Shown: positions 23,265-33,197 of the stretch, in pieces
How positions within the stretch are numbered: position 1 is the first letter of the stretch
Layout: each line of letters starts with the position of its first letter
DNA from: Flavobacterium sp. ov086
GTDB taxonomy: Bacteria > Bacteroidota > Bacteroidia > Flavobacteriales > Flavobacteriaceae
Direction: 5' to 3'
Length of the DNA: 64,000 bases
Assembly: GCF_900187965.1 (NCBI RefSeq)
Contig: NZ_FZNL01000007.1
Coordinates: 1 to 64,000 of the forward strand
The notes under the pieces: model-generated
The model's database searches: none
The model's input: only the letters and a program-made list of their open reading frames with translations
What the model was told of the DNA's origin: nothing
Position numbers and translations under genes: made by a program

Positions 23265-23600
23265 GAGGTAGAGCAATGTCATTAAGTTAAGACAAAATCC
23301 GATGGAATAAGTTATTAAGGACAATATCACGTCAGGTTATTTGTTTATTAGAAAATAAATCAATTTCATTAAGATAGATATTCATATTTGTTTTTTGTTC
23401 CATCGGAACATCTCATCGGTAGTCAAATAAATACGACATTTTGTACGTTCCGTAGGAACGTTTGATTTTATACATACAGATAGAGACACAATTTGTCAAA
23501 CGTCCTTACAGGACGATATTTCTCACGATCTATTTTTTTTCTACCAATGTGATATTCCGATGGAACAAATTGTTGTTGACAATATCTTATCATGTTGTTT
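23265..23600. repeat. Cluster of degenerate palindromic repeats
   Basis: Contains GAGCAATGTCATTAAGTTAAG (the same word as at 5822 and, degenerate, at 48497 and 48698), CCGATGGAA/TTCCATCGG at about 23299, 23399 and 23556, and CGTTCCGTAGGAACG (perfect palindrome) at about 23446. It also has ACGTCCTTACAGGACG at about 23500. An apparent 64-codon frame on the minus strand lies inside these repeats and is not credible. The rest of the gap up to 23967 is AT-rich leader sequence of the TonB-receptor gene. Confidence 0.55.
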
Positions 23601-23967
23601 TGCATAAATCTGACATACATAATAACAATGATCTCCAATGAATAAATTTTGTAAAATATCATTCAAAAAGTTTACTATTTGTAAATAAGTAGAAGATTTC
23701 AAAACTGAATTGTTACCGAATGTTTACTTCGAAATCGTTTACTTTTTTGTTCAAAAGAGTCTTCTAAATAGATTGTTTGCCCCGTATTTAAAGGAGTTTT
23801 TATATCATTTTCAATTGATTAACGATTTTTGTTTTTACAAATCCTTAACAAAGAAGCCTCTTAAATTTGCTTTTCTTTAACAATTACATAATTTTCATTT
23901 ATTTACTATTTATAAAAATCATTGTTTATTTGCTTTAATAAATTTAATATTTGTAAACAAATTAACC

Positions 23968-26844
23968 ATGAAAACAATTTACAAGGCAATTTTTATTTTT
24001 TCGGTTGCACTTTTTGCGCAGAACATGACGGCGCAAAAAGCTACAATAAGCGGAACCGTTACCGACTCACAATCTCCATTGCCGGGAGCAACTATTATAT
24101 TATCTAATAATCAAAAAGCAACAACTGATTTCAGTGGTTATTTTACAATTCAGGATGTTAGATCTGGTAGTTTAGAATTACAAATCGCATATATAGGATA
24201 TGAAACAAAAAATATAAAGATTGAAGTAAAAGACAATCAACAAGTTCGTTTAGGAATCATTCGTTTAGAAACCAATTCAAAAGAATTAAGCGAAGTTGTG
24301 GTAAGCGGAATGAGCCAAAGAAATAGTGAAGCAAGAGCGCTGAACATGCAAAAGAAATCAATGAGCATTGTAAATGTAATTGCTGCTGACGGAATAGGAA
24401 AACTTCCGGATCGTAATGCTGCCGAAACCGTTCAGCGTATGCCGGGAGTTTCAATCGAAAGAGATCAGGGCGAGGGACGTTTCGTTTCGGTGAGAGGTTT
24501 ACCACCATTTTGGTCATCGACTACAATCAACGGAAACAGAATCCCAACTGCCGAAGAAGAAACCACTTCGAGAGCCACGGCATTTGACTTTTTTCCGTCA
24601 GATCTTATTGCTTATGTTGAAGCTACAAAAGCGCTTACGCCAGATATGGATGGTGATGCAATTGGTGGTAGCGTGAATTTTACAACGCAGACTGCTCCAA
24701 CAAAAAGAACGATTAAAGCAAGTATTTTTAGCGGATACAATCAAAAATCAGATAAAGGAATTTACAGCGGATCAATTACTATTGGTGACAAAAGTAAAAA
24801 CGGAAAATTTGGATACATTATTAATGGTACATATTGGGACAGAAACTGGGCAACAGATAATTACGAAGCCAGAAGAAATGGTGATCAGGGAGTTTACAGA
24901 TTAGAATTAAGAGATTATACGGGAGTTAGAAAAACAACGGGTTTAAACGGTGCAATGGAATTTAATCCTTCTTCGAGAGATAAAATTTTCCTGAAAGCAA
25001 CTTACGGCGGACTTTCGGATACTGAAACGCATTACAAACACAGAATCAGATTTGACAAATTCAACAGTACTACAAATGCTTTAACAGTTGAACAACAGGA
25101 TATTCACAACGAATTGATGACACAATTTATTGGTATTGATTTGGGGGGAAAACATCAATTGGCAAACGGAAATTTAGATTGGAGTCTGGCTTCATACAGA
25201 AATCAGTTTAAATACGGAAACATTCCGAATGCAGAAGACAACAGTTATTTTTTAATCCAGTTTAACCAAACCGGAGTTGGCGTTAAACCGGAATATTTAA
25301 ACACGGTTCCTGTTGCAAATGGCGGAGCTGGCGGACCAAGAGCATATTGGGCTGCTGATGGCGGAATGCTTGACCCTAATAACCCGAAATCAATATTTGA
25401 TTTTTATTCAGATCCAAATTTCAAAACAGATCCAACAAAAATGAAGTTTTCTACATTGGAACTTTATAAAATAAGCATTGTAGAAAGAGACAATATTATT
25501 GCAGCGGTAAACTATGAGCACAATTTTAATGAAAGTCTAAAAATGAAGTTTGGCGCAAAATTGACAGACAAAGATCGTATTGCGACTTTTAGAGACGAAT
25601 ATTACAATTGGGTAGGTTCTCCAACGCCTTATTTATCAAATTACGGTTCAGATTTAATCAATCAGCCGGGCGGAACTGATTATATGAGAAGAGAAACCGG
25701 AACGAATATAGGAAACACTTTTGGGCCTGTTTTATCCGGAAACGGAATGAATAATTTATTCAATACATCTCAGGCAAATTTAGTTTTGAATCCCGTAGAT
25801 TCTCAAATTCCTGAATTAGGAAAAGGTTTAGGAAGAAACTTTAATGTTGGCGAAACTACATCATCTGCCTATGCGATGGCAACCTATTCAATAACAGATA
25901 AATGGACCGTTTTAGGAGGGGTTAGAGTAACCAATACAATCACACAAGTTACGGGTAAAACGGTAGAAAACAATGTAGTTATTGATGCGGAAAACACAAA
26001 AACATATACATCAGTATTGCCAATGTTGCATATTAAATATACTCCTGTTGAGAATTTAAACCTTCGCTTTGCTACAACCAGAACATTTGCAAGACCAAAC
26101 TTTGGTGACATTTCTCCAGCCGGATCATTGAACACGATTGATGGCGAATATGCAGGTGGAAACCCGAATTTGAATCCAACATATTCCTGGAATTTTGATT
26201 TATTAGGAGAATATTTTCTGGATGAAGTAGGAGTAATCAACGCTGGAGTTTTCTACAAATCGATTACAGATCCAATTTTTGATGACACTTATCAAGGTAC
26301 CATAAACGGAATTCCGAATATCGAAATCAGTTCACCAACAAATGGCGGAAATGCATGGATTGGCGGAGTAGAATTTGGAATCACAAAAAGATTCAGCTTC
26401 TTACCGGGATTCCTTAAATATTTTGGAACACAGATCAATGCAACTTTCATGAATTCTGAAATGACTTTGGGGCAAAACACCAATAATCCAAACGGAAGAA
26501 AAGTATCAACTCCTTATCAGGCAAAAGAATTATACAACTTACAATTGTTTTATGAGACAGGTAAACTTAACGTGAGAGCAGCATTTAACCATAAAGGAGC
26601 TTATGCAATAAGTTTTGACGCCAATGCCAAGAATACAGACATGAATGATATTTATTACGGTAAATACAACTCACTTGATTTCTCGGCTTCTTATAAAGTA
26701 GGTGATCATTTTACAATCTTCAGTGATTTAAATAATGTTTTGAATGAGCCTTTGATGTATCATTTTGGAGAAACTCCAAATAGACCAAAACAGGTAGAAT
26801 ATTACGGAGCAAAATTCAATCTTGGTTTAAAATATAATTTATAG
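23968..26844 (+). CDS. TonB-dependent receptor heading a phosphonate-like uptake locus
   Basis: 958 residues. Signal peptide (ending MTAQ-KATISG), then a CarboxypepD_reg-like domain (about 24-105, ISGTVTDSQSPLPGATI). The plug has the CirA-type signature KLPDRNAAETVQRMPGVSIERDQGEGRFVSVRG, split here as KLPDRNAAETVQRMPGV and RDQGEGRFVSVRG. A beta-barrel ends in FNLGLKYNL. It imports a ligand across the outer membrane using TonB energy. There is no SusD partner. The genes behind it (MFS, FAD oxidoreductase, phosphonatase-like HAD, alkaline-phosphatase family lipoprotein) suggest a phosphonate or phosphoester ligand; that is inference. Confidence 0.93.
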   Translation: MKTIYKAIFIFSVALFAQNMTAQKATISGTVTDSQSPLPGATIILSNNQKATTDFSGYFTIQDVRSGSLELQIAYIGYETKNIKIEVKDNQQVRLGIIRLETNSKELSEVVVSGMSQRNSEARALNMQKKSMSIVNVIAADGIGKLPDRNAAETVQRMPGVSIERDQGEGRFVSVRGLPPFWSSTTINGNRIPTAEEETTSRATAFDFFPSDLIAYVEATKALTPDMDGDAIGGSVNFTTQTAPTKRTIKASIFSGYNQKSDKGIYSGSITIGDKSKNGKFGYIINGTYWDRNWATDNYEARRNGDQGVYRLELRDYTGVRKTTGLNGAMEFNPSSRDKIFLKATYGGLSDTETHYKHRIRFDKFNSTTNALTVEQQDIHNELMTQFIGIDLGGKHQLANGNLDWSLASYRNQFKYGNIPNAEDNSYFLIQFNQTGVGVKPEYLNTVPVANGGAGGPRAYWAADGGMLDPNNPKSIFDFYSDPNFKTDPTKMKFSTLELYKISIVERDNIIAAVNYEHNFNESLKMKFGAKLTDKDRIATFRDEYYNWVGSPTPYLSNYGSDLINQPGGTDYMRRETGTNIGNTFGPVLSGNGMNNLFNTSQANLVLNPVDSQIPELGKGLGRNFNVGETTSSAYAMATYSITDKWTVLGGVRVTNTITQVTGKTVENNVVIDAENTKTYTSVLPMLHIKYTPVENLNLRFATTRTFARPNFGDISPAGSLNTIDGEYAGGNPNLNPTYSWNFDLLGEYFLDEVGVINAGVFYKSITDPIFDDTYQGTINGIPNIEISSPTNGGNAWIGGVEFGITKRFSFLPGFLKYFGTQINATFMNSEMTLGQNTNNPNGRKVSTPYQAKELYNLQLFYETGKLNVRAAFNHKGAYAISFDANAKNTDMNDIYYGKYNSLDFSASYKVGDHFTIFSDLNNVLNEPLMYHFGETPNRPKQVEYYGAKFNLGLKYNL

Positions 26845-26857
26845 ACAACTATAAGTT

Positions 26858-26928
26858 AACTCGTTGGATGTTGGGAGATTTTATTTTTACAGTTTATTTT
26901 TTTTGAATCAACTACATCCAGCGAGTTT
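26858..26928 (+). repeat. Intercistronic hairpin, TonB receptor/MFS junction
   Basis: AACTCGTTGGATGT pairs with ACATCCAGCGAGTT (13 Watson-Crick pairs and one G-U) around a 42-base AT-rich loop. It starts 14 bp after the receptor stop codon. It could act as an attenuator or an mRNA end. Confidence 0.65.
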
Positions 26929-26997
26929 CTAAAAAACTATAGAGAAACACACATTAAAACTTTACAACCATCTATTACCTTAAATATTTAAGAACTA

Positions 26998-28278
26998 ATG
27001 TCTAAAAAAGCATCTAATTTCAGGTTTATATTAAAAACATCCATTGCGGCATTTGGTACTTATTTTTGTATGTATGCTTTCCGTAAACCCTTTACGGTAG
27101 CCACATTTGACCATATGGCTTTCTGGGGAATTGACTATAAAATCTTGTTGATTCTGGCTCAGGTTTTAGGATATACACTTTCTAAATTTTTAGGAATTAA
27201 AATAATATCGGAGCTAAAATCGGCTAAGAGAATTTTATATTTAATCAGTTTTATAGCCATTTCAGAATTGGCTTTACTAGGATTTGCATTAGTTCCGGCG
27301 CCTTACAATATTTTGTTTTTATTCATAAACGGATTGCCTTTAGGAATGATCTGGGGAATCGTTTTCTCTTATATCGAAGGAAGAAAAACCACCGAATTAT
27401 TAGGCGTTATTCTCTGTTCGAGTTTTATAGTTTCCTCCGGAGCGGCAAAATCTGTGGGAATATTTGTCTTGACGGTTTTGGGATGCAATGAGTTTTGGAT
27501 GCCTTTTGTTTCGGGATTAATTTTTATAATTCCGTTAATTGTATTTTCATTGTTTTTGGAGAAAATCCCAAATCCTGATAGCGAAGATTTAGCTTTAAGG
27601 TCAAAACGAAAACCACTGAGCAAAAAAGAACGCGCATCCTTATTTCAGCAATTTGCATTTCCGTTAACGGCAATAATTATATTCTACGCCATGCTAACGG
27701 CAATGAGAGAATTCAGGGATAATTTTGCCAGAGAATTGTGGGATACTTTGGGATATAAAGAAAGTATTTCGATTTATATGTATTCAGAAATTCCAATTGC
27801 GATCTCGGTTCTTGTTATTCTAGGATTTTTAGGAAGCATGAAAAACAACTACAAAGCCTTCAAAAATTATCATTTAGTCTTGTTTTTAGGTTCATTACTT
27901 GTAGGTGTAACAACGTTCATGTTTCAAAAGCATTTAATGTCACCACTTCCGTGGATGATAATCTCAGGATTTGGAATGTATGTTTGTTATATTCCGTTTA
28001 ACGGTTTGTTTTTTGACCGAATGATTGCGACTTATAAAATAGACGGAAACACAGGATTTTTAATCTACATAGCTGATGCTTTTGGATATTTAGGAAGCGT
28101 TTTGGTTTTGTTTTTCAAAAACTTTGGAGACAAGAATATTTCCCTATTAAGCTTTTTTACCACTTGTATTTATCTGTTATCCTTTGTTGGGATAATCACC
28201 ACGATAATGTCTTTTAATTATTTTAAAAGGAAATTCAAAAAAACATCAAAAATTACTACAACGCCATTGTACACTTGA
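26998..28278 (+). CDS. MFS transporter, DUF5690/organophosphate-type
   Basis: 426 residues, about 12 membrane helices. The opening RFILKTSIAAFGTYFCMYAFRKPF has the Y-x-MYAFRKPF pattern of the DUF5690 family and recalls the organophosphate:phosphate antiporters (UhpC/GlpT), where FRK-like residues line the phosphate site. Other conserved points are GLPLGMIWGIVFSYIEGRKTTE (residues about 113-134) and the TAMREFRDNFARELW loop. Probably it imports the phosphorus-containing ligand, or a product of it, through the inner membrane. It is third-party evidence for the phosphonate reading that such a transporter sits between the receptor and the catabolic genes. Confidence 0.85.
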   Translation: MSKKASNFRFILKTSIAAFGTYFCMYAFRKPFTVATFDHMAFWGIDYKILLILAQVLGYTLSKFLGIKIISELKSAKRILYLISFIAISELALLGFALVPAPYNILFLFINGLPLGMIWGIVFSYIEGRKTTELLGVILCSSFIVSSGAAKSVGIFVLTVLGCNEFWMPFVSGLIFIIPLIVFSLFLEKIPNPDSEDLALRSKRKPLSKKERASLFQQFAFPLTAIIIFYAMLTAMREFRDNFARELWDTLGYKESISIYMYSEIPIAISVLVILGFLGSMKNNYKAFKNYHLVLFLGSLLVGVTTFMFQKHLMSPLPWMIISGFGMYVCYIPFNGLFFDRMIATYKIDGNTGFLIYIADAFGYLGSVLVLFFKNFGDKNISLLSFFTTCIYLLSFVGIITTIMSFNYFKRKFKKTSKITTTPLYT

Positions 28279-28360
28279 AATAAAGAAAAGGAATAGAATA
28301 AAATAAAAAATAAATATGACTATCCACGACGAATACCAAGCCAAAATAATATAAAAAAAG

Positions 28361-28501
28361 TTTGCCACGAATTTCTCAAATTAACCCGAATTATTTTAAT
28401 TGTACAGATTAAAAATCTGCATAAATCGGTGCAATTTATAGCTGGTTTTTTAAGTATTTTCAAAATAAAAATTAGAGAAAATTAGAGAAATTCGTGGCAA
28501 A
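28361..28501. repeat. Intercistronic inverted repeat, MFS/FAD junction (CCACGAATT family)
   Basis: TTTGCCACGAATTTCTC at 28361-28377 and GAGAAATTCGTGGCAAA at 28485-28501 are perfect 17-bp inverted arms. The interior contains further GAATT/AATT and GCAGAT-like words. Confidence 0.8.
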
Positions 28502-28565
28502 AAAAACAAATTTGGTACTCTTTGCGGATTGTCATAAAAACACAAATTACACAAAACACAAACAC

Positions 28566-29723
28566 ATGAAAGAGAAATATGATTTATTAATCGTTGGGTC
28601 AGGAGTTTTAGGTACATTTCATGCCTATCACGCTTTACAAAAAGGATTGTCAGTTGCCATTTTAGAAAAAAACAGCAAACCCGAAGGTGCAACAGTTAGA
28701 AATTTTGGACAGGTTGTACCATCAGGAATGGACAGAAAATGGCAAAACTTCGGAAAAGAAAGTTTAAATATTTACAAAGATATCCAGTCGCAGTTTGATA
28801 TTAGTATTCGTCAAAACGGAACGGTTTATTTGGCTTCAAACGAAGAAGAAATGCAATTGATTGAAGAGTTGCACCAAATAAATATCTCGAATGATTACGA
28901 ATCAAATTTGCTGACAAAAGAACAATGTCTGGCAAAATACGCCGGATTACGCTCTGATTATTGTACAGGAGGATTGTTTTTTCCGCAAGAAGTTACGGTT
29001 GAACCTTCGACTATGATTCATAAGTTACATCAATATATGACCGCCAATTTAGGTGTTGATTTATTTATGAATACAACTGTTTTAAATACTGAAAACAGAA
29101 ATGAGGAAGTAGTAGCAACAACTTCAGCCGGACTAGAATACAAAGCTTCGAAAATGATTATTTGCAACGGAAGCGATTTCAAAATACTATATCCGGAGAT
29201 TTATAATAATAGCGATTTAGTTGTTTCTAAACTTCAGATGTTACAAACAAAACCTCAAAATAATTACAAATTAGACGGTTCTATTCTAACGGGTTTAACC
29301 ATTAGAAGATATGAATCTTTTGAAGAATGCAAATCGTATGCAGCAATTAAAGCCAAAGAAAATCCGGATAGTTTTGAGAAAAAATACGGTGTTCATATCT
29401 TATTCAAACAGGCTTTGGATGGATCTGTAATTCTTGGAGATTCACACGAATACGCGCCTGCAAAAGATATAGATTCTCTGGGATTTGATTTGAATATGGA
29501 TATCGATAATTTCATGATTGAAGAAGCCAAAAAGATAATCGATTTGCCAACCTACGAAATACAGAACAGATGGTTCGGAATGTATTCGCAATGTAAAAAC
29601 AAAGATATTTTTGAACATACAATTGGCGAAAACATTCATATCATAACGGGAATTGGAGGTAAAGGAATGACCGGAAGCGCAGGATTTGCAAAACATAATA
29701 TCGATAAAATTTTTAATGCTTAA
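28566..29723 (+). CDS. FAD-dependent oxidoreductase, TIGR03364-like
   Basis: 385 residues. Rossmann FAD motif at the N-terminus (LLIVGSGVLGTFHAYHALQ), the DAO-type ADP-ribose strand end (VAILEKN), then EGATVRNFGQVVPSG, characteristic of the TIGR03364 group, and a C-terminal GIGGKGMTGSAGFA flavin loop. TIGR03364 members are found beside phosphonatase-like hydrolases. Related flavoenzymes oxidise 2-aminoethylphosphonate or its N-methyl derivatives to phosphonoacetaldehyde. The start at 28566 is chosen because the longer frame would begin with a GTG at 28494 inside the palindromic repeat. Confidence 0.85.
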   Translation: MKEKYDLLIVGSGVLGTFHAYHALQKGLSVAILEKNSKPEGATVRNFGQVVPSGMDRKWQNFGKESLNIYKDIQSQFDISIRQNGTVYLASNEEEMQLIEELHQINISNDYESNLLTKEQCLAKYAGLRSDYCTGGLFFPQEVTVEPSTMIHKLHQYMTANLGVDLFMNTTVLNTENRNEEVVATTSAGLEYKASKMIICNGSDFKILYPEIYNNSDLVVSKLQMLQTKPQNNYKLDGSILTGLTIRRYESFEECKSYAAIKAKENPDSFEKKYGVHILFKQALDGSVILGDSHEYAPAKDIDSLGFDLNMDIDNFMIEEAKKIIDLPTYEIQNRWFGMYSQCKNKDIFEHTIGENIHIITGIGGKGMTGSAGFAKHNIDKIFNA

Positions 29724-29740
29724 GCTAAAAAAATATTGAA

Positions 29741-29800
29741 CCATTAAGAGATTAAGAAAAATTAAGTGCTACTTCTTAATATAACTTAATCTCTTAATGG
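29741..29800. repeat. Intercistronic inverted repeat, FAD/HAD junction (ATTAAG family)
   Basis: CCATTAAGAGATTAAG and CTTAATCTCTTAATGG are perfect 16-bp arms within a 60-bp hairpin. The interior repeats the word ATTAAG/CTTAAT. Confidence 0.8.
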
Positions 29801-29822
29801 TAAAAAAACAAATACACACAAA

Positions 29823-30503
29823 ATGAAAATCAATGAAATTGAAATGGTCGTTTTTGATATGGCCGGAACAACCATAAACGAACAAAATATAGTTTATAAA
29901 TCTTTACATAAATCCATCAATAAATTCGGAATAGATGTTTCTCTTGAATTAGTGCTTTCCTTGGGAGCAGGCAAAGAAAAACATCAGGCGATAAAAGATA
30001 TTTTGAAACACATCAATATTACAGATTCCAATAAATCTCAGGAGATATTCGAATATTTCAAAGAAACATTAGACGAGGAATATCTTATGGCTAAAGTTTT
30101 ACCAATAGAAGGAATTGAAAATGTACTTCAAAACCTGAAAAAAGACGGTGTAAAAGTAGTTTTAAATACAGGCTACAGTAGTCATGTTGCCAACACTTTA
30201 TTGGAAAAATTAGAGTGGAAAAAAGACAATCAATACGATGCTTTAATCACAGCTGATGATGTAGAATTGGGACGTCCGTTTCCGGATATGATCCACAAAG
30301 CAATGCAATTATTCGGAATCAAAGACGCTTCAAAAGTATTGAAAGCAGGAGACTCTGCAATTGATATTGAAGAAGGAAAAAATGCTCAATGTGGTATTAC
30401 AGTTGGCGTTCTTTCAGGAGCGCAAACAAGGTCCCAACTTGAAGAGGCAAAACCAGATTATATTCTGGATTCACTTGCATCATTATATAGTATTGAGAAT
30501 TAA
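29823..30503 (+). CDS. Phosphonatase-like HAD hydrolase
   Basis: 226 residues. HAD motif I is VVFDMAGTT (Asp12 nucleophile and the AGTT signature shared with phosphonoacetaldehyde hydrolase PhnX). Motif II is VLNTGYSS, motif III is Lys339-type K in LKAGDSAIDIEEG with the GDS-D acidic pair, and the cap-domain segment is LSLGAGKEKH. By eye, Lys51 in GAGKEKH lines up with the Schiff-base lysine of PhnX (MGLLK-DH). The ADDVELGRPFPDM stretch is also PhnX-like. Predicted reaction: C-P bond cleavage of phosphonoacetaldehyde or a close analogue, acting after the upstream FAD oxidoreductase. Best match is the TIGR03351 group. Confidence 0.87.
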   Translation: MKINEIEMVVFDMAGTTINEQNIVYKSLHKSINKFGIDVSLELVLSLGAGKEKHQAIKDILKHINITDSNKSQEIFEYFKETLDEEYLMAKVLPIEGIENVLQNLKKDGVKVVLNTGYSSHVANTLLEKLEWKKDNQYDALITADDVELGRPFPDMIHKAMQLFGIKDASKVLKAGDSAIDIEEGKNAQCGITVGVLSGAQTRSQLEEAKPDYILDSLASLYSIEN

Positions 30504-30512
30504 TTTTTTTTC

Positions 30513-30570
30513 GCCACGAATTTCACGAATCAACACGAATTAATTAGTGAAAATTAGTGCAATTCGTGGC
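30513..30570. repeat. Intercistronic inverted repeat, HAD/phosphatase junction (CCACGAATT family)
   Basis: GCCACGAATT and AATTCGTGGC are perfect 10-bp ends of a 58-bp imperfect palindrome. Inside, CACGAAT on the left faces ATTAGTG on the right in two further rounds. Same family as 28361-28501. Confidence 0.8.
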
Positions 30571-30694
30571 TAACATTTTTAATCTACGTTAAAGTTAAGC
30601 ACATAATAATAGACTAATTAGTTAAAATAAAATCCCTGCAGGAAATAGTTTTAAACAAGTAAATAAATAGTAATCAATAAAACAATTCAACCCA

Positions 30695-32374
30695 ATGAAA
30701 AAGATTTTTAGATTAAGTTACATTACAATTCTTGCAAGTGTACTTTTAGTCACTTCCTGTACCAATGAACCAACGCTTGCGAGTGATGAGAATTCAGCGA
30801 ATGCAAAAACTATTTTAAACACTGGTAAAGTTGCCGCAAGCGGAACTAAAAAACTGCTTATTATAGGTATCGACGGCTGTCGCGGAGATGCTTTAATGGG
30901 AGCCAATACGCCAAATGTTCACGGATTACTTCCTAATTCGGTTTACAGTTTAGATGCTTTAACCGAAGCGCCAACATGGAGCGGAAACGGCTGGTCGACA
31001 ATGCTTAGCGGTGTAACGCATTTAAAACACGGCGTTACAGACAATTCTTTTTCAAGTCCAAATTTTGGAACTTATCCAAGTTTTTTAAAACGTCTTGAAA
31101 CGTATAATACGGCTTTAAGAACAATGTCAATCGTGCATTGGGCGCCAATCAATACTTATATTGTAGATGGTATTGATGTGGAGAAAACTTTAACGACAGA
31201 TTTAGCCGTTAAAAATGAAGTAGTTGCTGCATTGACAAACGACAATCCGGATGCTTTATTTTTGCATTTTGACGATGTAGATCACGCAGGTCACAGTTAT
31301 GGATTTTCGTTGAATGTACCACAATACAAATCTTCAATCGAAACTACAGACGGTTATATTGGTGAAATCTTAACGGCTTTAAAAAACAGACCTAATTATG
31401 CCAACGAGGATTGGTTGGTGATTGTGGCGCCGGATCATGGCGGAATCGTAACTGGCTCTACAGGTTCTCACGGAGGTTCATCTTATGAGGAAAGAAATAT
31501 TTTTACAATCTTCAATAATAAGAATTTCACTTCGACTAAAATCGAAAAACCGGTTGATCCTACAACATCGATTACAGGTAAATTTGCCAATTTTAATTCG
31601 AATAGTATTTATGCTTCGACAACTAATGCACTTTACAATTTTGGAAGTTCAAGTTTTACAGTAGAATGCAGAATAAAAACTTCTGGTTATTCAAGTGATC
31701 CATCAATAGTTTCTAATAAAAATTGGGTAAGTGGTAAAAATCGCGGATTTGTGATTTGTGCCAATACCGGAGGAACCTGGAAAGTAAATATTGGTGATAC
31801 ACAAAATCGCGTAGATATTTCGGGAGGTACAATCAATGACGGAAAATGGCATCATTTAACTATGGTCGTTGATCGTACTGCGAAGTTGGTTAAAACCTAT
31901 CAAGACGGTGCTTTTGTTGGCCAAGCAGCAATTGTGAGCTCTTTTGGTAGTTTAACTTCGGGATTGCCATTTGCTGTTGGACAAGACGGAACTTTGACGT
32001 ATGGCGCCAATGTAAACGGAAATATTGCTGAAGTTCGTGTTTGGAATAAAGCACTATCTGAAACTTCAATTTTCAATTATACCTGTTCATCGGTTACAAG
32101 TTCTCATCCTGATTACGCAAATCTTATTGGATATTGGAAAGGAGATAATGGTTTAGGAAACAGTTTTACAGATTCAAGCGCACAGCAAATCGCTCTTGCT
32201 TTTCCTAACACACCAACATGGACTACAAGTACAACAACTTTAAAATGCGGAACCGCAACCGGAGTAGTTCCTAAAATGGTAGATATCGCATATTCTTCAC
32301 TGCAATGGTTTGGCGTACCAATCAATTCTGGTTGGTCGCTGGACGGTCGCTCTTGGCTTCCTGCAGGAAATTAA
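30695..32374 (+). CDS. Alkaline-phosphatase-superfamily phosphodiesterase lipoprotein with nested LamG domain
   Basis: 559 residues. Lipobox Cys22 (LLVTSC). Metal and catalytic motifs of the nucleotide pyrophosphatase/phosphodiesterase type are GIDGCRGD (Asp60), the nucleophile region APTWSGNGWSTMLSG (Thr94 or Ser96), DDVDHAGH (Asp196, His200), APDHGG (Asp247, His248) and SHGG (His259). A LamG/concanavalin-like domain follows at about residues 295-510 (FTVECRIKTSG, DGKWHHLTMVVDR, IAEVRVWNKALSE). The last 40 residues (MVDIAYSSLQWFGVPI, WSLDG) look like the normal C-terminal end of the phosphatase domain, so LamG is inserted inside it. It probably releases phospho- or phosphono-groups from glycan- or lipid-bound substrates at the cell surface. 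Confidence 0.87.
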   Translation: MKKIFRLSYITILASVLLVTSCTNEPTLASDENSANAKTILNTGKVAASGTKKLLIIGIDGCRGDALMGANTPNVHGLLPNSVYSLDALTEAPTWSGNGWSTMLSGVTHLKHGVTDNSFSSPNFGTYPSFLKRLETYNTALRTMSIVHWAPINTYIVDGIDVEKTLTTDLAVKNEVVAALTNDNPDALFLHFDDVDHAGHSYGFSLNVPQYKSSIETTDGYIGEILTALKNRPNYANEDWLVIVAPDHGGIVTGSTGSHGGSSYEERNIFTIFNNKNFTSTKIEKPVDPTTSITGKFANFNSNSIYASTTNALYNFGSSSFTVECRIKTSGYSSDPSIVSNKNWVSGKNRGFVICANTGGTWKVNIGDTQNRVDISGGTINDGKWHHLTMVVDRTAKLVKTYQDGAFVGQAAIVSSFGSLTSGLPFAVGQDGTLTYGANVNGNIAEVRVWNKALSETSIFNYTCSSVTSSHPDYANLIGYWKGDNGLGNSFTDSSAQQIALAFPNTPTWTTSTTTLKCGTATGVVPKMVDIAYSSLQWFGVPINSGWSLDGRSWLPAGN

Positions 32375-32399
32375 AACGTTTGTGTTTTTTGTTTTTAAA

Positions 32400-32435
32400 A
32401 GGTTATCTCCATTTTTGGAGGTAGCCTTTTTATTG
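32400..32435 (+). terminator. Terminator of the phosphonate-like operon
   Basis: GGTTATCTCC and GGAGGTAGCC form a 10-bp stem (two non-Watson-Crick G-U type pairs) with a TTTTT-containing loop, followed by TTTTTATT, 25 bp after the phosphatase stop. Confidence 0.7.
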
Positions 32436-32437
32436 TT

Positions 32438-32593
32438 TAACCGCAAAGTGCGCCAAGGTTAAATTTTGTATTACGCACAGAAAACACATCCCGAAGCTTC
32501 GGGACGCAAAGCTAGATCAAGACAAAGCTTTGCGACCTTTGCGTTTGTCAACACATTTAGAGTAAAAAAAACTTTGCGCACTTTGCGGTTAAA
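32438..32593. repeat. Intergenic inverted repeat (GCAAAG family)
   Basis: TTTAACCGCAAAGTGCGC at the left faces GCGCACTTTGCGGTTAAA at the right as perfect 18-bp arms. The interior holds CCCGAAGCTTCGGG (perfect palindrome) and further GCAAAG/CTTTGC words. It lies between the convergent phosphatase and XRE genes. Confidence 0.8.
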
Positions 32594-32612
32594 AATTATG
32601 CAGTAAAATAAA

Positions 32613-33197
32613 TTAACTATTACTTTCAGAATAGAAGTAAAGTACCAGCATCACACAATTTTCTGTGGTTCTGTTTTCTGGTACGTGCGGATGTCTTCCG
32701 TTGAAACATAAAGAATCGCCTTCGTTTACGATAACTTCAACATCATCAATAATATAAGTTACGCTTCCTTTAATGATAAATTTGAATTCCCAAGCATCTG
32801 TAATCACCTTTTCGCGTTTACAATTAGGCTCAACGTCAAGAATTACGGCTTCAAAACCTATAGAATTGATGCTTTTACTGAAGATATGATAGTAATTAAA
32901 ACCGGTTGTTTCGGCTTTGTCTTCTTTTTCTATTTTTTGGTAATCTTCTTTTTTAATATGGATGTATTTGGCATTTTTGGTGTTTTCAACGCCTTCAAAA
33001 AAGTAACTTACATCAGTATTTAAAGATTGTATCAGTTCGATTAAAACTGGTAAGGATGGAATAGTTCTTCCGTTTTCTATTCTGGAAATCAAACCATTAC
33101 TAACGCCCGCCATATTGGCAACTTCGTGAATGGTCAGTGAATTTTTCTTTCTAATTTCTTTTAATCTTTTTCCGATACCAATTAAAAAATCTTCCAT
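32613..33197 (-). CDS. XRE family regulator with C-terminal cupin sensor
   Basis: 194 residues. HTH_3 domain at residues about 10-65 (RLKEIRKKNSLTIHEVANMAG, NGLISRIENGRTIPSL) and a cupin at about 120-190 (WEFKFIIKGSVTYIIDD, VNEGDSLCFNGRHPHVPEN). This HTH-cupin layout senses a small ligand in the cupin barrel. It is convergent with the last gene of the phosphonate-like locus and is the closest candidate regulator of that locus. Confidence 0.88.
   Translation of the reverse strand: MEDFLIGIGKRLKEIRKKNSLTIHEVANMAGVSNGLISRIENGRTIPSLPVLIELIQSLNTDVSYFFEGVENTKNAKYIHIKKEDYQKIEKEDKAETTGFNYYHIFSKSINSIGFEAVILDVEPNCKREKVITDAWEFKFIIKGSVTYIIDDVEVIVNEGDSLCFNGRHPHVPENRTTENCVMLVLYFYSESNS

Follow-up and report, generated by a model that had tools for sequence, protein, structure and literature searches.

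The first 64,000 nucleotides of contig NZ_FZNL01000007.1 of Flavobacterium sp. ov086 (assembly GCF_900187965.1), here called the window, contain five co-directional genes and an adjacent regulator gene that together make up a likely aminophosphonate utilisation locus. Aminophosphonates are compounds whose carbon–phosphorus bond is stable. Families were assigned with NCBIfam, using its curated cut-offs, and with Pfam, using its gathering scores. The locus has the following features.

23638..23967, + strand: region 5' of the receptor gene with four TTTGTAAA/TTTACAAA sites, a candidate operator
23968..26844, + strand: TonB-dependent outer-membrane receptor (TBDR) with an N-terminal carboxypeptidase-regulatory-like domain (TIGR01782, 488 bits, cut-off 310; PF00593, PF07715, PF13715)
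26998..28278, + strand: DUF5690 carrier with the fold of the major facilitator superfamily (MFS) (PF18943, 557 bits)
28566..29723, + strand: PbfD-family (TIGR03364) flavin adenine dinucleotide (FAD) oxidoreductase (420 bits, cut-off 285.1)
29823..30503, + strand: PhnX-like (TIGR03351) protein of the haloacid dehalogenase (HAD) type (235.7 bits, cut-off 218.9)
30695..32374, + strand: lipoprotein of the alkaline-phosphatase (AP) superfamily, NPP/PafA-like (PF01663; PF13385, LamG_3; PF16356, DUF4983)
32613..33197, - strand: helix-turn-helix (HTH)-cupin regulator, PuuR-like (HTH_3, PF01381; Cupin_2, PF07883)

All six open reading frames (ORFs) lie where the original prediction had placed them, and the families that it gave for the FAD enzyme, the HAD and the receptor are borne out by scores above the curated cut-offs. 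The listed ORF of the FAD enzyme begins farther upstream, with a GTG at position 28494. The PF18943 match of the carrier extends over the full length (1–382 of 382) with 556.7 bits, the gathering score being 25 bits. The top NCBIfam match of the regulator is PuuR, with 51 bits under a cut-off of 211. No SusD-like gene was found next to the TonB receptor among the ORFs and families of the window.

The strongest point of the analysis, which is absent from the original prediction, is that DUF5690 tracks aminophosphonate catabolism across three breakdown routes. In a set of 395 genomes of the phylum (thresholds E<=1e-20 for DUF5690, E<=1e-50 for TIGR03364 and E<=1e-30 for TIGR03351), DUF5690 is found in 42 genomes, TIGR03364 in 33 (32 over the cut-off) and TIGR03351 in 29 (10 over the cut-off). 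The pairs among these families occur in 30, 28 and 27 genomes and the triple in 27, with Fisher p values for the pairs of 6e-32, 2e-31 and 9e-34, uncorrected for kinship. PhnW (TIGR02326) is present in 14 of the 395 genomes, 13 of them over the cut-off. Either TIGR03364 or PhnW is present in 40 genomes overall, including 35 of the 42 that have DUF5690; the DUF5690 genomes lacking both are G206, G220, G250, G256, G398, G404 and G498 (G and L numbers are our handles for genomes and loci). Among 14 control genomes, only Caulobacter vibrioides gave a DUF5690 match. Counted by gene, aminophosphonate genes are close to 34 of the 47 DUF5690 genes of the phylum set. For 11 of these the assignment uses only coordinates, TIGR03364 being no more than about 1.2 kilobases (kb) away; for the rest the stretch was read.

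The three breakdown routes found beside DUF5690 are PbfD/PhnX-like, PhnW/PhnX and PhnW/PhnY/PhnA. On a Novosphingobium plasmid, DUF5690 adjoins TIGR03364 and a gene annotated as phosphonoacetaldehyde hydrolase; in Bacteroides finegoldii and Parabacteroides distasonis records it adjoins phnX and phnW. In L109 and the overlapping L139 it lies near PhnW (485 bits), PhnY (665 bits) and PhnA (496 bits), all over their cut-offs, together with a SusCD pair. Since the carrier stays constant while the pathway changes, gene context suggests that DUF5690 should carry the substrate shared by these routes, an aminophosphonate.

The predicted model of DUF5690 (predicted local distance difference test, pLDDT, 87.0; predicted template modelling score, pTM, 0.86) ranks closest to the organophosphate:phosphate antiporter SLC37A4. 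The first six Foldseek ranks are all SLC37A4 (G6PT, the glucose-6-phosphate exchanger), and VIA-align gives Z 32.1 against SLC37A4 (root-mean-square deviation, rmsd, 3.4; 364 aligned) and Z 28.3 against GlpT 1pw4 (rmsd 4.3; 394 aligned). In the alignment from a DUF5690 profile (A2; E 1.3), R29-K30 in transmembrane helix (TM) 1 and S62-K63-F64 in TM2 are in register with the RK and SKF of SLC37A4. Arg29, Lys48, Lys63 and Arg237 are invariant in 122/122 DUF5690 rows, including solitary copies that lie apart from phosphonate genes; R237 is assigned to TM7 by pattern only. The phosphate ligands of GlpT are R45 (TM1), K80 (TM2) and R269 (TM7). Beside the top fold rank and the TM1 Arg-Lys and TM2 Lys in register stand an identity of about 15% and a sequence match that is not significant.

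An antiporter-type carrier for 2-aminoethylphosphonate (AEP) has a precedent, since AepP, a relative of GlpT (28% identity, 9e-37), is required for the use of AEP as a nitrogen source in Pseudomonas putida, according to excerpts of PMC8316502. Like the carrier we propose, AepP is an organophosphate-antiporter-type MFS protein for an aminophosphonate. However, AepP as described in those excerpts is clearly GlpT-like, whereas profile A2 reaches no GlpT chain at E<=10 among PDB sequences. This rules out that DUF5690 is AepP, and by sequence it is a family apart. Taken together, neighbours, co-occurrence and fold indicate that DUF5690 is probably an importer of aminophosphonates in the inner membrane. 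An MFS_1 carrier is observed in three TIGR03364 genomes without DUF5690 (G339, G382 and G471), next to TIGR03364 in L143 and L144 and one gene off in L142. TIGR03364, PhnA, PhnY, PbfA and an AP enzyme are present in these three loci and DUF5690 is absent; the MFS_1 carrier is perhaps an AepP-like replacement.

The family of the FAD enzyme has members of known chemistry. Excerpts of PMC10590968 place A. baumannii PbfD1 in TIGR03364 and report that PbfD enzymes, with O2, convert N-methyl-AEP (M1AEP) and, less well, AEP to phosphonoacetaldehyde; no tested PbfD enzyme reacted with sarcosine, taurine or beta-alanine, and phnW is missing from the clusters of most pbfD2 genes. The arrangement in the window, where the FAD gene is directly adjoined downstream by a PhnX-type HAD gene and PhnW is lacking, is like the PbfD + PhnX hydrolytic pathway of that work, and differs from it in that the HAD is of the PhnX-like TIGR03351 type. 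The same excerpts mention neither a TonB receptor nor DUF5690. Profile searches for other phosphonate routes in the genome of this strain gave matches only below cut-off for PhnW, true PhnX and PhnA (PbfA was not searched there), and zero matches, with a positive E. coli control, for PhnJ of the carbon–phosphorus (C-P) lyase.

The HAD retains the catalytic core of PhnX. In an alignment of 90 HAD and 4 PhnX rows, Asp12, Ala14, Gly15, Thr16, Gly50, Lys53, Thr116, Gly117, Arg151, Pro152, Asp177 and Asp181 are invariant in 90/90 HAD rows. The core residues of PhnX (nucleophile Asp, Schiff-base Lys, Thr, Arg and Asp) are thereby kept as D12, K53, T116, R151, D177 and D181. The original prediction had aligned the Schiff-base lysine with Lys51. 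This position is ruled out by the alignment, in which the Lys53 column is Lys in 90/90 HAD and 4/4 PhnX rows and Lys51 is Lys in only 47/90. Five distant HAD rows (L131–L135) read MG-x-x-K, a pattern identical in PhnX. Because Lys53 is invariant and these distant rows read like PhnX, the equivalent of the Schiff-base lysine is, on the alignment, Lys53. A pairwise phmmer alignment puts Lys51 opposite the PhnX lysine, so the misreading is understandable. The C-P hydrolysis of phosphonoacetaldehyde is a probable, not an assured, chemistry for this enzyme.

The AP lipoprotein has a lipobox-like LLVTSC, read from the sequence, and its top PDB sequence matches are NPP chains, with Ser96 opposite the NPP nucleophile Thr. 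D60, S96, N117, D196, H200, D247, H248 and H259 are invariant in 20/20 rows. By analogy with NPP, we take D60, D196, H200, D247, H248 and H259 to be metal ligands and S96 the nucleophile. Ser96 and Asn117 are 21 residues apart, as are the NPP Thr and Asn with which they align. The enzyme thus shares with NPP and PafA the core fold, the metal-ligand pattern and this spacing, and differs in having Ser rather than Thr as nucleophile and in the added LamG_3 and DUF4983 domains. A fold search returned the alkaline-phosphatase superfamily, with NPP, PafA and SPAP tied in score on a poor model, and it did not separate diesterase, monoesterase and sulfatase. In relatives, four Chryseobacterium rows (L046, L061 twice, L075) extend further at the C-terminus, with a tail that looks like a type IX sorting signal (unscored), and an AP enzyme of L024 has a Por_Secre_tail domain. 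These tails make export of the lipoprotein to the surface likely. We infer that it may there release glycan- or lipid-bound phosphonate.

The gene order is conserved in relatives. DUF5690 is present in 9 of 148 genomes of the order. TIGR03351 (E<=1e-40) is found in exactly these 9, and in 5 of them its score passes the cut-off. We compared 88 loci, namely the 20-kb stretches of eight of these order genomes (the window excluded) and 80 named loci, the best 80 of 539 relatives. The HAD is present in 78 of these, the FAD enzyme in 76, the HTH-cupin and AP genes in 71 each and a PbfA-like lyase in 14. The complete order TBDR-DUF5690-FAD-HAD-AP is found in 44/88 loci, and DUF5690-FAD-HAD is ordered and co-directional in 75/88, where the gaps have medians of 11 and 4 bases. 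One holder of the locus is F. saccharophilum DSM 1811 (L026). The AP gene is present in 61 of the 76 loci having both FAD and HAD. The receptor is exchangeable: 49 loci have a nearby TBDR more than 50% identical and no SusCD, 26 have SusCD only, one has both (L033) and 12 have neither. This exchange of receptor types is a new part of the finding.

In 74 of the 80 named loci a core gene lies within 9 kb. The remaining ones are L037, L044, L045, L053, L057 and L060, and PbfA is in the cluster list of L044, L053, L057 and L060. A PbfA-type (R)-1-hydroxy-AEP ammonia-lyase is encoded in L019 (7586–8929; 715 bits, cut-off 525). The occurrence of PbfA relatives in 14/88 loci suggests that hydroxy-AEP is a second substrate there. 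Where the locus has SusCD, a Phn-HD-type protein (TIGR03276) is found repeatedly (L109, L132, L133, L135, L136, L140 and L146). The L109 copy scores 209 bits, slightly below the cut-off of 214.6; none was seen adjoining the window genes.

We consider it likely that the best explanation of the window is an aminophosphonate utilisation locus reaching from the surface to the cytoplasm. The surface AP-superfamily lipoprotein would hydrolyse phosphonate (or phosphate) esters outside the cell, and the TonB receptor, replaced by a SusCD pair in relatives, would import the product or a small ester through the outer membrane. DUF5690, as an organophosphate-antiporter-like MFS carrier, would move the aminophosphonate across the inner membrane. 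The PbfD-family FAD oxidase would then use O2 to convert N-methyl-AEP and/or AEP to phosphonoacetaldehyde, as published for other family members, and the PhnX-like HAD, with Asp12 and a Schiff base at Lys53, would cleave the C-P bond to give acetaldehyde and phosphate. Families, gene order and co-occurrence thus uphold the aminophosphonate locus of the original prediction, while its Lys51 falls away and the uptake without ABC transporters that it set apart is not unprecedented.

Several observations weigh against this reading. The HAD scores 108.1 bits with the true PhnX model TIGR01422 (102.5 in the genome search), below the cut-off of 220. Met49, Cys22 and His56 surround the PhnX active site; at these positions the PhnX rows show Met (4/4), Cys (4/4) and His (2/4), and the HAD of the window shows Ala49, Asn22 and Ala56. 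Unrelated MFS proteins reach up to Z 30.8 with the DUF5690 model, a small margin within Z 2 of SLC37A4; since other MFS proteins reach Z 30–31, fold alone is not decisive for the family. The best sequence match to SLC37A4 has E 1.3 (five SLC37A4 sequences, the sole PDB matches of profile A2 at E<=10), and the smaller profile A1 gave no PDB sequence match at E<=1. The AP model is poor (pLDDT 55.9), the enzyme could act on ordinary phosphate esters, and an AP-type gene is absent beside DUF5690 in the Bacteroides, Parabacteroides and Novosphingobium records. The 88 loci were picked by similarity and are close relatives, not independent cases, L020 and L105 probably being one genome. Five genomes have TIGR03364 or PhnW and no DUF5690 (G178, G307, G339, G382 and G471), and in G317 and G373 the TIGR03364/TIGR03351 pair (L145, L146) lies elsewhere in the genome, far from DUF5690. 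Conversely, for 13 of the 47 DUF5690 genes of the phylum set the stretch examined contained no aminophosphonate gene, and seven of these solitary rows (L106, L107, L108, L113, L118, L120 and L121) form one supported clade (100/99). As solitary copies keep the Arg and Lys residues, positions Arg29, Lys48, Lys63 and Arg237 are no marker of phosphonate.

Some of these points would suit a different substrate, with the TIGR03364/TIGR03351 pair acting on a substituted aminophosphonate and the HAD cleaving an aldehyde other than phosphonoacetaldehyde. The sub-cut-off PhnX score and the three differing positions fit this view, as does the label of both models at NCBI, only 'hypoth_equivalog'. Nevertheless, the nucleophile, the Schiff-base lysine and the core motifs are retained in 90/90 HAD rows, and TIGR03364 of Novosphingobium is paired with an annotated phosphonoacetaldehyde hydrolase; we regard a different substrate as unlikely.

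The locus might instead consist of two units side by side, a DUF5690-FAD-HAD operon for phosphonates and a TonB receptor with an AP lipoprotein for other nutrients. In two Cellulophaga loci, L036 and L040, no AP or receptor gene lies within about 10 kb of DUF5690-FAD-HAD, and the Bacteroides and Parabacteroides records have DUF5690-phnX-phnW with neither beside it. The 12/88 loci without a near TBDR or SusCD point the same way, with the qualification that four are short stretches (L045, L090, L093 and L098) and that L024 has a TBDR farther off. Against this, DUF5690 is repeatedly accompanied by AP-family enzymes and by a TBDR or SusCD, in different families and next to varied catabolic genes, and AP goes with most FAD and HAD pairs (61/76); we consider two independent units improbable.

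Ordinary phosphoester scavenging, with a plain phosphodiesterase, DUF5690 carrying phosphoethanolamine or another organophosphate, and the FAD enzyme and HAD acting on phosphate esters or amines, is very improbable: the resemblance of the AP enzyme to NPP and PafA, the fold of DUF5690 closest to a sugar-phosphate exchanger and the 13/47 genes without phosphonate neighbours would agree with it, but the PbfD enzymes in the excerpts of PMC10590968 use M1AEP and AEP and leave sarcosine, taurine and beta-alanine inert, and the phosphonate-substrate enzymes PhnW, PhnX, PhnA, PhnY and PbfA recur beside DUF5690.

The solitary copies (L106–L108, L111, L113, L115–L118 and L120–L123) rule out a strict equation of DUF5690 with phosphonate, and the family may therefore carry more than one substrate. 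In a DUF5690 tree of 52 rows the solitary label changes 7 times, compared with a mean of 13.2 in shuffles, and none of 500 shuffles was as low. The label covers 15 rows here, the two extra ones (L037, L044) coming from the named loci; L044 has SusCD, AP and PbfA farther out, so that it counts as solitary only because of the 9-kb limit. The solitary clade possibly carries a different organophosphate. Solitary L111 adjoins an FAD oxidoreductase 20% identical to that of the window, with no NCBIfam match at E<=1e-60, and solitary L116 has in its vicinity a class-III aminotransferase with 27% identity to PbfA; both may be distant relations.

Compared with known systems, the enzymes of this aminophosphonate locus are known in kind and the assignment of DUF5690 is new. 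The original prediction had called phosphonate uptake through a TonB receptor unlike the usual ABC-based route, yet TonB/SusCD-type clusters with phosphonate-degrading enzymes are already in print, the broad idea being found in excerpts of PMC8115612. The PusCD phosphate utilisation systems of Flavobacterium described there have a SusC/SusD pair. The window differs in having a TonB receptor without SusD, SusCD replacing the near TBDR only in the 26/88 loci noted above, and the excerpts on PusCD do not name DUF5690. A search of the open-licence literature for the term DUF5690 returned zero papers, and searches with other wordings beyond PMC8115612 found no description of such a gene set in the passages returned. 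Excerpts of PMC8812569 state that Bacteroidota apparently lack ABC transporters needed for small molecules. In Maribacter forsetii, the SusCD pair P177_RS04595/RS04600 is the highest expressed in laminarin-grown cells, and its expressed neighbours include an alkaline phosphatase, an FAD-dependent oxidoreductase and a phosphonatase-like hydrolase (excerpts of PMC11345257). This pair may belong to the aminophosphonate locus type rather than to laminarin uptake.

These results give a testable function to DUF5690, a family of unknown function that is repeatedly found alongside aminophosphonate breakdown genes in many Bacteroidota and, outside them, on at least one alphaproteobacterial plasmid, and they outline how Bacteroidota might take up the commonest natural phosphonates, including surface-bound ones. 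It is possible, though doubtful, that DUF5690 is a phosphonate:phosphate antiporter, bringing aminophosphonate in and phosphate out, and that the locus mines nitrogen and carbon rather than phosphorus and is induced by its substrate through the HTH-cupin protein. If so, widespread Bacteroidota of soil, sea and gut would be phosphate-insensitive remineralisers of surface-bound phosphonates that return phosphate to the outside.

The HTH-cupin protein probably senses the substrate and controls the locus. The TTTGTAAA/TTTACAAA motif lies 5' of 15/34 HTH-cupin genes, compared with 24/242 other genes, in rows that are related and with a motif chosen post hoc. In the window itself, the 200 bases preceding the HTH gene contain no copy, and the count of the 9-mer ATTTGTAAA over the whole window does not exceed chance (7 matches; mean of shuffles 4.4). 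As an operator, the sites at 23638–23967 are a lead only.

Palindromic repeats are observed in the gaps of the operon and upstream of it (28361–28501, 29740–29801, 30510–30573, 32431–32598 and 23394–23569). The repeat arm GCCACGAATTNCACGAATT has 54 copies in the genome of this strain, compared with 0 for the reversed control, and the operon copies deviate from it by 1–2 bases. In most related loci, 50 bases or fewer separate DUF5690 from FAD (71/75 cases) and FAD from HAD (63/75).

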